The notes beneath the pieces were generated by a model that saw only the letters and a program-made list of their open reading frames with translations, made no database searches and had not been told where the DNA came from. This document shows positions 9,825 to 48,366 of a DNA stretch of 64,000 bases, in pieces. The stretch is from assembly GCA_937927895.1 (NCBI GenBank), contig CALGKA010000039.1, positions 1 to 64,000 on the forward strand. The letters run 5' to 3'. This stretch comes from an uncultured Granulosicoccaceae bacterium (GTDB lineage Bacteria > Pseudomonadota > Gammaproteobacteria > Granulosicoccales > Granulosicoccaceae). Positions within the stretch are counted from its first letter, which is position 1, and the number at the start of each line of letters is the position of its first letter. The translations under genes and the position numbers were made by a program.

Positions 9825-11381
9825 ATGACTGAAGCTAAACGCCCTTCCCGCAGAGGCGCGCGGGCTGCAAAAAAAGCCCAACGCGCAGCACCGTTAGCCG
9901 CCCATGAGCGTGCAGTTAACCCAGGTATGTCGGGTGGTCGCTTTGCTCCACTAAGCGATTTAGACGTCGGCAAAATCAATGATGCAGTAATGGACGTTCT
10001 CGAAAACGTCGGTTTGTCTCAGGCACTTCCAAGCTGTGTAGATGCGGTAAAAAAAGGCGGTGGCATCTATAAGAATGACCGACTACACTTTCCAAGGTCC
10101 CTCGTTGAAGACACCATTGCCAACTGCGCACGTGGCTTCACACTGCACGGTCAGTCAGAAGAACACGATATTCAAATCAGTGATTCCAAAATGTATTTTG
10201 GCACCGCTGGAGCGGCGGTACATATAGTTGATGTTGAAAACCGTGAGTATCGCGAATCGACCCTTAAAGATCTCTACGATATTGCTCGTATAGTAGATCA
10301 ATCTGATCACATTCATTTTTTCCAACGGTCTATTGTTGCGCGCGACATGATAGAACCTGCTGATCTTGATCTGAATACACTCTATGCATCTATTAGCGGT
10401 ACTAGTAAACACGTAGGCACCAGTTGGGTGCTGCCGGAACACGTTGATGAATCTTTAAAATTACTTCATCAAGTTGCAGGCTCAGAACAAGCATGGCGCG
10501 ATCGACCGTTCGTTTCGATGTCGTGTTGCTTTGTTGTGCCACCATTGCGCTTTGCGGAAGATGCCTGTGCCTGCCTGGAATCTGCAGTACACGGTGGTAT
10601 GCCGGTGCTACTACTATCAGCAGGACAAGCAGGAGCAACCAGCCCTGCTGCCATTGCAGGCTCCGTCGTACAAGCAACGGCTGAAGTACTTGCGGGGCTT
10701 GTATACGTTAACCAGTTAAAGCCTAAGCACCCTGCTATTTTCGGTACCTGGCCCTTTGTATCCGACCTACGCACCGGTGCCATGAGTGGCGGCAGCGGTG
10801 AACAAGCCATTCTAATGGCCGCTTGCGGCCAAATGGGTCGCTACTACGATTTACCGACAGGTGTAGCCGCAGGGATGGCAGATGCCAAACTACCGAATGC
10901 ACAATCAGGCTATGAAAAAGGTTACACAGTGACCTTGGCTGCACACTCAGGCGCTAACATGATTTACGAGTCCGCGGGTATGCACGCAAGCCTACTAGGT
11001 GCATGCCTTGAGAGTTATATCATTGATAACGATATGCTGGGTGCGATCAACCGTACTGTTAAAGGCATTGAAGTAAACGATGAAACACTCTCTATTCAAA
11101 CCATGCGCGATGTCTGCATAGACGGCCCACTACACTACCTTGGCCACCCGCAAACTATGGAGCTCATGCAGTCAGAGTATTTATACCCGGAGATCGGCGA
11201 TAGAAACAGCCCCAAGGAATGGCAGGAAAGAGACAAACCCAAACTACTGGTTGAAGCCCGCAAACGTGTCGATCAAGTGTTAAGCAATCATTTCCCGGCG
11301 CATATCAATGATAAAACGGATCAGCAATTACGGGAAAACTTTACTATTAAGCTTCCACGTGAAGTGATGACTAAAAGCTAA
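9825..11381 (+). CDS. Trimethylamine methyltransferase (MttB) superfamily protein, non-pyrrolysine
   Basis: 518 residues. A basic N-terminal tail (about 1-30) leads into the MttB TIM-barrel, with recognisable segments LENVGLSQALPSC, YFGTAGAAVHIVDV, SCCFVVPPLRF, GTWPFVSDLRTGAMSGGSGEQ and YESAGMHASLLGACLE. There is no in-frame TAG, so this is one of the pyrrolysine-free homologues. Characterised members demethylate quaternary amines such as glycine betaine, but many are unassigned. No cognate corrinoid protein is encoded in the window. The downstream bidirectional terminator closes the transcript. The exact substrate is unknown. Confidence 0.85.
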   Translation: MTEAKRPSRRGARAAKKAQRAAPLAAHERAVNPGMSGGRFAPLSDLDVGKINDAVMDVLENVGLSQALPSCVDAVKKGGGIYKNDRLHFPRSLVEDTIANCARGFTLHGQSEEHDIQISDSKMYFGTAGAAVHIVDVENREYRESTLKDLYDIARIVDQSDHIHFFQRSIVARDMIEPADLDLNTLYASISGTSKHVGTSWVLPEHVDESLKLLHQVAGSEQAWRDRPFVSMSCCFVVPPLRFAEDACACLESAVHGGMPVLLLSAGQAGATSPAAIAGSVVQATAEVLAGLVYVNQLKPKHPAIFGTWPFVSDLRTGAMSGGSGEQAILMAACGQMGRYYDLPTGVAAGMADAKLPNAQSGYEKGYTVTLAAHSGANMIYESAGMHASLLGACLESYIIDNDMLGAINRTVKGIEVNDETLSIQTMRDVCIDGPLHYLGHPQTMELMQSEYLYPEIGDRNSPKEWQERDKPKLLVEARKRVDQVLSNHFPAHINDKTDQQLRENFTIKLPREVMTKS

Positions 11382-43609: not shown

Positions 43610-45565
43610 TTAGAACTTATCTTCTACAGCAACCAATGTACGCCTGGTGTCTCCGATACGCTGCGTAAATCTACAGCGATCAAAGTACTCAAGTATCTCT
43701 ACCACCAGGTTTCTCCCAACCCCTGACTTGTCGCGAAAGGCAGCAACAGTCAGTTTATCGCCCGCGCTTAGCGACACTGCAATGTGCGCAAGCTTTCTTA
43801 AGGTTTGCGGTAAAAAATATCTATTTTCAGTTACCTTGTATAGCTTCCCATGAGACACGCAGTGCATTAGAAACTTGTGTGTCTCATCAACTGTTTTATC
43901 CAATACTTTCGCAAGCTCAGCTACACGCGGAGGGGCAAGCGAATCAACAGAAACACTGTCGCTAATTCTCTGCCACTGTAATTGGTCCTCGCTTGATAGT
44001 GTAATCTCATGATCACAAAGACGGTAGACAGTGGCGTTTCTTATAATCGTTGAATCTTGCACCAGTAACGTAAGATGCAGCTCTAGTAACGCAACATCTA
44101 CTTTTAATGGGTAAAGTTTTTTTAAGCGAAGCGCATCTACTCCGAGCACTTCTGGATGTGCAGCATGGAACTGCCTTAAAACCTCAAGCAGATCGACCTT
44201 AAGCGCACTGCTCTGCGATTCTTTCATTCCCCATAATTCATTAGCTGCACGATGTACCACCAAACCAAGTTCGCTTGTTATAGATTCAAGCTCGGTTGAA
44301 TTGAGATTTAGCTTCCGTGAAAAAGCAGTTAAATTCACCCCGGCAGGTTGCAGATCAACAAGTTCACTTAATGCTTGTGCAGAGGTTTTAGCATTTAATG
44401 CTTTAAGCTCTTTTAAACGAGCGGGCTTACTACGCCCACGCCTTGGAGGGTACGGGTCAAGCACGCGACCACCTGCTATAGTCTTACGCGCTGATTGATC
44501 TCGTAATACAAATCGATCACCGTGCACTGCAAAAAACGGTTTCTCACATATTAGTCTGGCAAGTGCATGTTCACCGTGAGCAAGTTCCGTGGTATCAAGC
44601 AGCGCAATACGGCAAGGAATATCTGCAGTGCCAAGATGCAAATGTGCCGGTGTCCAATGATGCAACTTATATGTATTATGGGTTGGCTTGGCAGATGCAT
44701 TTCTATTTTCACTTACAAAAAGTGCAGGTGTAATTATTACATCTATAAAATTTACGCACTGCACATCAGCATTAGAAACTAACCAATCACCTCGCTGTAA
44801 CATCGGACGGGTGAGTTCACCGCTAACATTAAGAGCACACCGCTGTCCGACAAAGGCATGCTTCGCTTCAGTGTTTTGTGCATGGATGCTTCTTACACGG
44901 GCAGACTTTGCATGGTCTGCACTAGCGGAAGCTAATGTGACCGTGTCACCTTTACTGATCGCTCCGTCTACTACGGTACCCGTCACGACAGTACCGCTAC
45001 CGTCGAGTATAAAGCTACGGTCAATTGCCATGCGAAAACTACCTCGCTTGTGCCGAGGTAGCTGCGCACCGGCTAGTTCAACAACACGCTCTTTAAGAAG
45101 GTTTACTGCCGCCTGATCATTGCTTGCAAGAGCAAACAACTGGCTATTCTCAAACCCCGCTTGCCGCAGTAGATCACTCACTAGATTTTCAACTTCCTTA
45201 ACCCGCTCAGGTTCGACCAGGTCAATTTTACTCACTAACGCCACTACATTTCGCACAGACATTAATTGCAGAATAGCGATATGCTCCAGTGTTTGCGGCA
45301 TTGGCCCATCATCTGCTGCCACCACCACCAATGCGATATCTACCATCCCAACACCGGCGATCATATTACGAACAAATTTCTCATGCCCTGGCACATCAAT
45401 AAACGCCAGGTTTTGGCCGCTGTCATTTTTTAAATAGGCAAAGCCAAGATCAATTGTTAAGCCGCGCTTTTTTTCCTCGGGGAGCCTGTCTGTATTAGTG
45501 CCGGTGAGCGCTCTAACGAGCGAAGTCTTGCCATGATCGACATGGCCTGCGGTGGCTATAATCAT
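43610..45565 (-). CDS. selB: Selenocysteine-specific translation elongation factor
   Basis: 651 residues from the ATG at 45565; the frame is open further upstream but no SelB extends there. The EF-Tu-like GTPase domain starts MIIATAGHVDHGKTSLVRAL (G1 at 7-14). DTNRLPEEKKRGLTIDLGFA and VDVPGHEKFVRNMIAGVG (G3 region) follow, then G4 VSKID. Barrel domains follow (SFRMAIDRSFILDGSGTVVTGTV as motif). The C-terminal half holds the winged helices that read the mRNA hairpin. It delivers Sec-tRNA to UGA codons. It is divergent from, and 125 bp from, the candidate selenoprotein gene, with selA after that. selC and selD are not seen in the window. Confidence 0.95.
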   Translation of the reverse strand: MIIATAGHVDHGKTSLVRALTGTNTDRLPEEKKRGLTIDLGFAYLKNDSGQNLAFIDVPGHEKFVRNMIAGVGMVDIALVVVAADDGPMPQTLEHIAILQLMSVRNVVALVSKIDLVEPERVKEVENLVSDLLRQAGFENSQLFALASNDQAAVNLLKERVVELAGAQLPRHKRGSFRMAIDRSFILDGSGTVVTGTVVDGAISKGDTVTLASASADHAKSARVRSIHAQNTEAKHAFVGQRCALNVSGELTRPMLQRGDWLVSNADVQCVNFIDVIITPALFVSENRNASAKPTHNTYKLHHWTPAHLHLGTADIPCRIALLDTTELAHGEHALARLICEKPFFAVHGDRFVLRDQSARKTIAGGRVLDPYPPRRGRSKPARLKELKALNAKTSAQALSELVDLQPAGVNLTAFSRKLNLNSTELESITSELGLVVHRAANELWGMKESQSSALKVDLLEVLRQFHAAHPEVLGVDALRLKKLYPLKVDVALLELHLTLLVQDSTIIRNATVYRLCDHEITLSSEDQLQWQRISDSVSVDSLAPPRVAELAKVLDKTVDETHKFLMHCVSHGKLYKVTENRYFLPQTLRKLAHIAVSLSAGDKLTVAAFRDKSGVGRNLVVEILEYFDRCRFTQRIGDTRRTLVAVEDKF

Positions 45566-45690
45566 AAACGGAATACTATCGGGAAATACTTCGAGCAAAT
45601 GCCGCGAGTTATCATTATCATTGGGTGCGGTCGGGTAATTCTCAGTATTTTGGCTGTAACCGCTGCGCATCGCAACAACGGAGACACAAT

Positions 45691-46860
45691 ATGGCAAGAC
45701 TGAACGAAATGGTGGAGGGCCTGCGAACGACTGTCGAAACGCTGGATTGCCCAACGTTTTCTGATGCCGCTTTCACATCAGCACGACCCCTAAATGAGTG
45801 TCGGGTGGCATTAATATCGACAGCCGGCCTAATGCGCCGCAACGACGACAATGTACCAGGCAATAGCGACGACTACCGTAGTTTTGACAAAACCTGTCAA
45901 AACCGGGACATTCTGATAAATCACATATCAGTCAATTTTGATCGAACAGCATTTGCCGAAGACGCCAACACTGTCCTTCCAAAAGACCTATTAAAAACGT
46001 TAGCAGAAGACGGCACGATAGCAAAAGCGGCTGATACCCATTATTCATTTTTAGGCGCAACCGGCGCTGCTCAACTAGAGAAGAACGCCAAACGCTTAGC
46101 AGAGGAATTAAACGAGCTAAATATCAACACTGTTTGCCTACTACCTGTTTGACCTGCCTGTACTCGCGCCGTGAGCGTGATTGCACATTGGATCGAACAA
46201 GCTGGAATCAACACTGTTGTTATTGGATCAATCAAACCACAACTTGAGAAAATAAAGCCACCAAGAGCCTTGTGGGTACCATTTGAACTCGGCCGCCCAC
46301 TGGGACCACCTAGCAATCCTGAAGTACAATTGCAGGTGTTACGCCAGGCACTTGGCTTAATAGAAACAGCACAACAAGCTATAATTGAGGACTTTGAAAC
46401 TGATGATCCGCGCGCTACACCTGCTAAGGTTTGGAACGCTCCTGGTATTGACGCCATGACAACAGTGGCTGAAGAATGTGCAGCCCTTAAAGTGTACTAC
46501 CAGCAGCAATGCGTTAGCCAAAGCAGAACTTCAGTAGGGGTCGCTAAAACTCCCATAATTGAACTGGCAGAATTGTTTGATCATGTTTACCAACACAATA
46601 AACTTAAAGAGATACGGGAAGATATCTCATCACGATTAATGTTTCGCTTAGCACTTGATGATCTCAAGGCGTACTATATAGAAGCAGCACTAGGCAACAA
46701 TAAGCAACCGTCTAGCGTACAAATATACGATTGGATATGGAAAGACACTTTGCTTGGCAAACAGATGCGTGAGCTACGTAAGCGTTTTATGGAATCAGAT
46801 GATAAAAAAATTAGCGATTTGGGAGCAAAGTTTATCGTGCCACACCAATGGCGTGATTAA
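45691..46860 (+). CDS. Selenoprotein of the glycine/D-proline reductase selenoprotein B (GrdB/PrdB) family, UGA read as selenocysteine
   Basis: One 389-residue protein split by an in-frame TGA at 46150-46152, which I read as selenocysteine 154. Start ATG 45691 has GGAG seven bases upstream. The first half has ARPLNECRVALISTAGLM, then VCLLPV-U-PAC-TRAV, a UxxC redox pair (Sec154, Cys157) placed as in PrdB. After it come GINTVVIGSIK and PRALWVPFELGRPLGPPSNPEVQ, matching the family. About residues 245-389 form an extension beyond PrdB length that I do not recognise. It is bracketed by selB and selA. These enzymes reduce a bound substrate with the Sec-Cys pair; the substrate here is unknown. A true double-frameshift pseudogene is unlikely, since both halves are intact and in phase. 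Confidence 0.88.
46150..46175 (+). promoter_or_regulatory. Selenocysteine UGA codon and candidate bacterial SECIS hairpin
   Basis: TGA at 46150-46152 is followed after 10 nt by CTCGC-GCC-GTGAG (46163-46175), a 5-bp stem with one G-U pair and a GCC loop whose G lies 18 nt from the U of the UGA. Bacterial SECIS elements are local hairpins just 3' of the UGA with a G in the apical loop, recognised by SelB. This one is short. A competing 3-bp stem (CGC/GCG with a 7-nt loop) exists, so the exact fold is uncertain. Confidence 0.55.
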
Positions 46861-46950
46861 TAACTACGGGATTAATTACTCCGCGTTAAATAATTGCATA
46901 TCGACTCCAATCGAAAATATCAACTCATCAAATGTTTGGACATCATAGCG

Positions 46951-48366
46951 ATGTCCAAACCATTTCAACTTAATCAACTGCCATCAGTTGATCGCGTTCT
47001 ACAAACCAGTTTATTTTCCGAGCTACTACAGCAATATGGTCGCGAGTCAGTGCTGTCAGCGCTACGGGCACAACTTGACCTCACAAGACAACAACTGCAA
47101 GCTAATGAACAGATCGCTGATGCGAGCACCGAAGATTCTATAATAGAGACGCTCAGCAACAATGTGGCCTTATCATTGGCTACTGAATTCACCCCGTCAC
47201 TCAAACGTGTTTTTAATCTTACCGGTACCATTCTGCATACTAATCTTGGCAGAGCACCCTACCCTCAATCTGCAATCGATGCGATGGTGGATGTAAGCCG
47301 CGGCGCATGCAACCTTGAATACAACTTGCACACGGGTAAGCGTGGTCGCCGCGATGATCACGTAGAAAAATGGATCTGCAAACTTACTGGTGCTGAAGCA
47401 GCCACTACCGTTAACAACAATGCTGCGGCTGTACTGCTGACTTTAAACAGTATTGCAAACCGACGGAACGTTATCGTGTCCCGCGGTGAACTCATCGAAA
47501 TTGGTGGCTCATTCAGAATTCCCGCCATTATGGAAAAGGCCGGCTGCAAGCTGCGTGAAACAGGCACAACTAATCGTACACATCTAAAGGACTACAAGGA
47601 AGCGATCGGTAAAAAAACAGCCGCACTAATGAAAATACATACCAGCAACTTTGAAATTAACGGCTTCACTAAAAGTGTTGCAGCAACAGATCTAGCCGCG
47701 TTAGCACAAAGCCATAGTATTCCGCTGATAGACGATCTAGGTAGTGGCACGCTAGTAGATCTTACGCAGTTCGGTTTGCCTTACGAACGCACTGCCAAGG
47801 AAGCACTCACTGACGGTGCAGATATCATTACCTTTAGCGGCGATAAACTTTTAGGCGGCCCCCAATGTGGGATCATTGCAGGCCGCAAAGATTTAATCGA
47901 GCTAATTGATAAGAACCCAATAAAAAGAGCCATGCGACTCGACAAGGTGGCACTTGCAGCCCTTGCGGAGGTTTTAAAACTATACGCGACACCTGAGACT
48001 CTAGTAACGCAAGTACCATCTTTGGCTATGTTATCTCGAAAAGCCGCTGAGATTAAAATCACGGCAATCAAGCTACAGAGTGCGCTCAACTCACATCTCA
48101 CAAACTATCAGGTATCAGTGAGTCCTTGTCAGAGCCAAATTGGCAGCGGCGCACTACCTACTCGCACACTAGACAGTTACGCAGTAGTGGTGCATGCGTC
48201 ATCAGGCAGTTCAGTAAACAAGCTGGCGGCACGCTTTAGGGATTTATCGGTTCCCATCATCGGCCGTATTGCCCAAGAAGCACTATGGTTAGACTGCCGC
48301 GCTATAGAACATGAGCTAGATGAATTAATCAAAATGTTTAACGTTGATTTAGCCAGCAGCACCTAA
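46951..48366 (+). CDS. selA: L-seryl-tRNA(Sec) selenium transferase
   Basis: 471 residues from the ATG at 46951; the frame extends to 46894 without family support. SelA marks: RRVFNLTGTILHTNLGRAPYP, CNLEYNLHTGKRGRRDDHVE, NNNAAAVLLTLNSIA, SRGELIEIGGSFRIP, ETGTTNRTHLKDY, IDDLGSGTLVDL, and SGDKLLGGPQCGI with PLP Lys299. It converts Ser-tRNA(Sec) to Sec-tRNA(Sec) using selenophosphate in a PLP-dependent decamer. It lies 90 bp after the selenoprotein gene on the same strand, so the two may be co-transcribed. SelD, the selenophosphate source, is elsewhere. Confidence 0.95.
   Translation: MSKPFQLNQLPSVDRVLQTSLFSELLQQYGRESVLSALRAQLDLTRQQLQANEQIADASTEDSIIETLSNNVALSLATEFTPSLKRVFNLTGTILHTNLGRAPYPQSAIDAMVDVSRGACNLEYNLHTGKRGRRDDHVEKWICKLTGAEAATTVNNNAAAVLLTLNSIANRRNVIVSRGELIEIGGSFRIPAIMEKAGCKLRETGTTNRTHLKDYKEAIGKKTAALMKIHTSNFEINGFTKSVAATDLAALAQSHSIPLIDDLGSGTLVDLTQFGLPYERTAKEALTDGADIITFSGDKLLGGPQCGIIAGRKDLIELIDKNPIKRAMRLDKVALAALAEVLKLYATPETLVTQVPSLAMLSRKAAEIKITAIKLQSALNSHLTNYQVSVSPCQSQIGSGALPTRTLDSYAVVVHASSGSSVNKLAARFRDLSVPIIGRIAQEALWLDCRAIEHELDELIKMFNVDLASST

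Follow-up and report, generated by a model that had tools for sequence, protein, structure and literature searches.

A predicted long GrdB/PrdB-related selenoprotein encoded next to selA in Granulosicoccaceae

Organization of the selB-selA locus

The analyzed window is a stretch of 64,000 nt from an uncultured Granulosicoccaceae bacterium, the assembly of which has a size of 4.55 Mb and is 92.6% complete. Of the named relatives, Granulosicoccaceae MAGs are the closest. It carries a gene for a protein related to GrdB and PrdB, positioned between a divergent selB and a co-directional selA (Table 1). Standard translation lists this gene as two ORFs, as the initial annotation had anticipated for automatic pipelines; being cut in two, it is easily missed. 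Read as a single frame, it contains one lone internal stop, the TGA, and the 18 nt which link this codon to the second ORF translate as PACTRA.

Table 1. Features identified at the selB-selenoprotein-selA locus of the window.
Feature	Position	Strand	Basis
selB, selenocysteine-specific elongation factor	43610..45565	-	TIGR00475, 405.6 bits (cut-off 242.25)
Intergenic stretch between divergent selB and the selenoprotein gene	45566..45690	.	Sequence reading
GrdB/PrdB-like selenoprotein CDS, 389 codons including the in-frame TGA (Sec)	45691..46860	+
UGA decoded as selenocysteine, residue 154	46150..46152	+	TGA in 22/22 aligned homologues
Cys157 codon, second residue of the UxxC redox pair	46159..46161	+	Invariant in 22 sequences
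SECIS-type hairpin, 10 pairs, apical loop CGUGA at 46170-46174	46159..46185	+	Fold and homologue alignment
C-terminal helical extension, residues about 236-389, absent from PrdB	46396..46857	+	No Pfam match
selA, L-seryl-tRNA(Sec) selenium transferase, 90 nt 3' of the selenoprotein gene	46951..48366	+	TIGR00474, 581.5 bits (cut-off 267.9)

For selB, the TIGR00475 match begins at residue 64 of the frame opened by TTG 45754, and ATG 45565 is the more likely start. Homologue starts likewise make ATG 46951 a more likely start of selA than TTG 46894. We found no strong sigma-70 site in the intergenic stretch upstream of the selenoprotein gene. The one downstream folds strongly (z = -4.9) and includes a 15-pair hairpin at 46930-46965 with the loop AUAGC, the stem of which holds the probable selA start. 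A role of this hairpin as a SelB feedback element was considered and set aside, since neither of the two nearest relatives has this structure.

Elsewhere in the window, at 10875-10974, the Rfam model PYLIS_3 is matched with 65.6 bits within an mttB-like gene (9825-11381). A pyrrolysine reading of this match was rejected, since the gene contains no in-frame TAG; it probably encodes a non-pyrrolysine MttB homologue.

Recoding of the in-frame UGA

We determined that the codon of residue 154 is TGA in each of the 22 aligned full-length homologues, with no other internal stop in any of them. The same applies to the homologues of six named relatives and of the long-form genomes of the order, each with one TGA and no further stop. 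Selection acts alike on both sides of this codon: comparing the closely related L020 and L021 gives a dN/dS of about 0.04 upstream (0.028/0.72) and about 0.06 downstream (0.034/0.56), values taken from this pair alone, as dS is saturated in deeper ones. The low ratio past the TGA implies that the part behind this codon is made as protein and kept under constraint. Residues U154, P155, C157, T158, R159, A160 and V161 are invariant in the alignment, and all distant homologues carry Cys or Sec in the column of residue 154, namely either of the two in the short proteobacterial forms, and Sec in PrdB and GrdF of clostridia.

The codon is followed by a hairpin with its apical loop 17 nt after the UGA and a G near the loop start. 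Bacterial SECIS elements are marked by a G within the first two positions of the apical loop. In the homologue alignment, the frequency at which the same residue is encoded by the same codon rises from 0.40 gene-wide to 0.62 in codons -3 to +6 and to 0.77 in codons +7 to +16. The most constrained codons are +6 to +8 (GCC GTG and the next one), which show no synonymous change at all. All 10 hairpin pairs form in the window sequence, against 6.2 expected under synonymous codon redraws, of which a fraction of 0.002 reaches 10. Folding energy alone is unremarkable, with 0.17 of the synonymous redraws folding at least as stably and z = -1.3 relative to dinucleotide shuffles. In a set of 20 distinct sequences, pairing holds for 91.5% of the pair cells versus 86.8% in shuffles, none of which is as good, and when the partners are slid along, pairing reaches at most 63%. 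One pair alternates between U-A and G-C, a compensatory change seen in 9 sequences, and the fit is poorer in some homologues, e.g., L050 and L051 with 7 of 10 pairs. No second SECIS of this type was detected in the genome by a search that picks up only hairpins like that at 46159-46185, the next match having E 3.6.

An ordinary stop, ending a 153-residue protein ahead of a separate downstream gene, or else a pseudogene or a sequencing error, would account for the exactly two ORFs that standard translation gives. Against this stand the identical TGA in 22 homologues, drawn from numerous assemblies, the constraint beyond it, the hairpin and the exchange of Cys and Sec at this column. Such an explanation is therefore vanishingly improbable, and comparative conservation led us to discard split genes, a pseudogene and a sequencing error. 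The initial annotation had joined the two ORFs into one selenoprotein with a UxxC pair of Sec and Cys, and had named homologues all ending at residue 153, or carrying neither Sec nor Cys there, as evidence that would speak against it. None of the latter were encountered and both parts of the proposal are borne out; 45691-46860 is almost certainly a selenoprotein gene with Sec at UGA 46150.

Family placement and comparison with known systems

A search of the joined protein against Pfam GRDB (PF07355), as suggested with the initial annotation, gave a match to residues 31-150 with E 1.5e-11 and 44.6 bits, above the gathering cut-off of 22. The match spans only positions 220-344 of the 347 of the profile. 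The best curated match is TIGR04483 (PrdB; residues 25-228, E 1.8e-27), with 96.3 bits versus an equivalog cut-off of 300, while TIGR01918, the general selenoprotein B subfamily, reaches 56.4 bits (cut-off 65.45) and TIGR01917, the GrdB equivalog, 48.4 bits (cut-off 602.2). In our tree, the 22 long Sec proteins group in a clade of their own (support 100/97). The short proteobacterial forms, which carry Cys or Sec, make up another, and PrdB and GrdF of clostridia likewise fall outside the long clade; GrdF is a long branch of unsure place. Thus, of the GrdB/PrdB assignment made initially, the relationship holds, but the identity as GrdB or PrdB is not supported.

The structure model has a mean pLDDT of 90.9 and places Sec154 between a strand (147-151) and a helix (155-170). 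Reactive thiols and selenols are usually located at such strand-to-helix junctions. The surplus of about 155 residues at the C-terminus is predicted to be largely helical (about 259-382). No PDB chain was found by fold at E <= 0.001, nor any convincing solved relative by sequence; combined with the high confidence of the model, this makes the protein a reasonable structure target.

The long form is rare: of 369 Gammaproteobacteria genomes sampled, only that of the window and two of the distant gammaproteobacterial family f154 showed it, and of 398 sampled Pseudomonadota genomes only that of the window. A viral origin was rejected, as no relatives of the gene were found in viral contigs. A plasmid origin was also rejected, given no match to plasmid DNA and only distant protein relatives on plasmids.

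The initial annotation had pointed out that partners of the PrdA or GrdA type are missing nearby. We found this absence to extend to 48 genomes of the order, where PF09338, covering PrdA and GrdE, had no match, the same search matching Peptoclostridium and Terrisporobacter records as a positive control; GrdA (PF04723, GRDA) was also unmatched there, in a search run without such a control. The protein might still be a subunit of D-proline or glycine/sarcosine/betaine reductase with its pyruvoyl partner encoded elsewhere, as its best curated match is PrdB and the UxxC lies at the same place. This is very improbable in view of the score far below the PrdB cut-off and of the unmatched partner families: at 92.6% completeness a partner could escape in the window's genome, but not plausibly in all 17 genomes that carry the long form. 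Since neither partner profile was matched and the family scores fall below the curated cut-offs, the selenoprotein is, on sequence criteria, very probably not a D-proline or glycine reductase subunit, and we rejected its naming as a classical PrdB or GrdB.

With PrdB (e.g., of Terrisporobacter and Enterococcus) the protein shares the homologous core (25-228) and Sec in the same column. It differs in having UPAC instead of UGTC and 389 instead of about 241 residues, and prdA adjoins prdB, whereas no PrdA was found in the 48 genomes. It is homologous to the C-terminal half of GrdB, GrdF and GrdH (PF07355, TIGR01918), with Sec at the same place, but does not possess their N-terminal half, scores below TIGR01918 and has no GrdE or GrdA found with it. 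The FarB/FarE fluoroacetate reductase of Synergistota likewise includes a GrdB-like selenoprotein, for which selenolate attack in the absence of a Schiff base was proposed (PMC10838667). Yet, its operon encodes the GrdE-like partner FarE, a radical SAM protein and an antiporter, none of which recurs at the window gene. The short (about 305 aa) glycine/sarcosine/betaine reductase selenoprotein B family proteins of proteobacteria share the core with C or U at this position and, in the regions seen, have no adjoining PrdA. They differ by the motif CPVCHQ, form a separate clade and show no link to selA in these regions. Two near-identical 305-residue Cys-form copies are encoded in the genome of the window itself (L002 on G000:C147 and L003 on G000:C18).

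PrdB-like UxxC selenoproteins were described as the third commonest known selenoprotein family in the Sargasso Sea, with 42 genes (PMC1088965); 235 were counted in GOS (PMC2398784) and they made up 6.4% of the selenoproteins in a later GOS set (PMC9402790). These marine bacterial sequences are similarly related to pfam07355 and carry a UxxC with an in-frame UGA. They differ in being metagenome sequences named proline reductase, and they may include the 389-residue selA-linked clade. The kind of protein is hence less novel than initially implied, PrdB-like UxxC selenoproteins having been reported from 2005 onwards to abound in metagenomes of sea water. The novelty, within the literature searched, lies in the long architecture with no partner and a one-to-one tie to selA. 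Marine surveys have counted PrdB-like selenoproteins as proline reductase for twenty years, and the long clade represents relatives to which the known sense of proline reductase cannot apply, because no PrdA-type partner was found in the 48 genomes.

Association with selenocysteine genes and proposed activity

The genome encodes tRNA-Sec (anticodon tca), selD (247.6 bits), selA and selB. By eye, selD is part of a 730-residue ORF (L076, 4153-6345) with an oxidoreductase-like start, adjoined on the same strand by a selU-like gene. We found selA in 17 of the 48 genomes of the order and the long Sec form in exactly the same 17, with none in the other 31. In all 17, it is located directly upstream of selA on the same strand. 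The chance of such an exact coincidence is 2.4e-13 if the genomes are taken as independent, a figure uncorrected for shared ancestry; as the genomes are not independent, the real surprise is smaller. In 13 of the 17, a divergent selB adjoins, and in G004 and G005 selB comes after selA. The two f154 genomes show the selenoprotein gene followed by selA, with selB next in one of them. Among distant genomes, no neighbours other than selA and selB are widely shared, and the neighbour analysis revealed no conserved metabolic neighbour or partner. Dependence of the selenoprotein on the adjoining selA and selB, whose client it was initially proposed to be, is strongly supported.

The gene precedes selA on the same strand in each of the 17 genomes as well as in both f154 genomes, and no terminator-like site lies between the two genes. 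This arrangement would also suit an additional, or even main, role as a selenium gauge, in which read-through of the UGA couples selA expression to Sec supply. This role is quite unlikely: the protein is constrained over its full length, which indicates that the product matters, and the hairpin at the window's selA start does not recur in the nearest relatives.

Concerning other clients, formate dehydrogenase ranks as the most widespread selenoprotein of bacteria (PMC5029168). Of the 48 genomes, 47 gave matches to it, none of which has an in-frame stop. Linkage of the present kind has a precedent in genomes that have a single selenoprotein gene, located near the sel genes (PMC5029168). Here, a second Sec paralogue (UPFCTRAV), positioned away from the sel genes, occurs in 5 of the 17 genomes; the gene is therefore not the sole selenoprotein gene everywhere. 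The selenoprotein is probably a principal reason why Sec decoding has been retained in these bacteria. The tie to selA also provides a genetic handle: if the selenoprotein is the main client, losing it or selA should give the same phenotype. In the literature searched, we found no paper that connects Granulosicoccus with either selenoproteins or selenocysteine.

In GrdB/PrdB systems, a carbonyl group (the pyruvoyl in PrdA) holds the substrate by its amine, and the selenolate attacks (PMC13188914, PMC10838667). For fluoroacetate reductase, a system with a GrdE-like subunit, it was proposed that the Schiff base need not be essential (PMC10838667). As no pyruvoyl partner was found for the long form, direct use of the selenolate becomes more likely. 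In our reading, ribosomes decode UGA 46150 as Sec by means of SelB, tRNA-Sec and the hairpin at 46159-46185. The resulting enzyme would belong to the GrdB/PrdB superfamily but stand alone, with Sec154 and Cys157 paired as U-P-x-C where a helix begins. In the mechanism we propose, the Sec154 selenolate would attack a small substrate directly, with no pyruvoyl Schiff base, unlike in PrdA/PrdB and GrdE/GrdB; Cys157 would then resolve the selenenylsulfide and a general thiol donor would re-reduce the enzyme. That the protein acts as a stand-alone cytosolic selenol-thiol reductase is a tentative assignment by analogy with the superfamily, somewhat short of an even chance. Taken as a whole, the statement that the locus holds one selenoprotein gene, encoding a putative stand-alone selenol-thiol reductase and the probable principal Sec client, appears fairly likely. 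A bolder version is unlikely, namely that selB, the selenoprotein gene and selA form a self-contained module, with a pyruvoyl-free Sec enzyme of an undescribed reaction as the sole or main Sec client and read-through tying selA to selenium supply.

The second paralogue, with the motif IPVUPFCTRAV, is found at L044, L045, L046, L047 and L048 (genomes G001, G004, G005, G006 and G009). By eye, its neighbours vary and include betaine-type transport and GMC oxidoreductase genes (L064) and a GFA-like gene (L065). Short-form GRDB genes of other Pseudomonadota (L053, L054, L095 and L099) have TGA where their relatives carry Cys (UPVCHQ) and likely encode further selenoproteins. At L070, a selD-like fusion gene adjoins. 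SelO-type genes were seen by eye near GRDB-family genes in two Granulosicoccaceae genomes (L060, 5525-7075; L061, 3807-5432), and one annotated as such adjoins a short Cys form on a Roseomonas plasmid (L080, 8779-10251).
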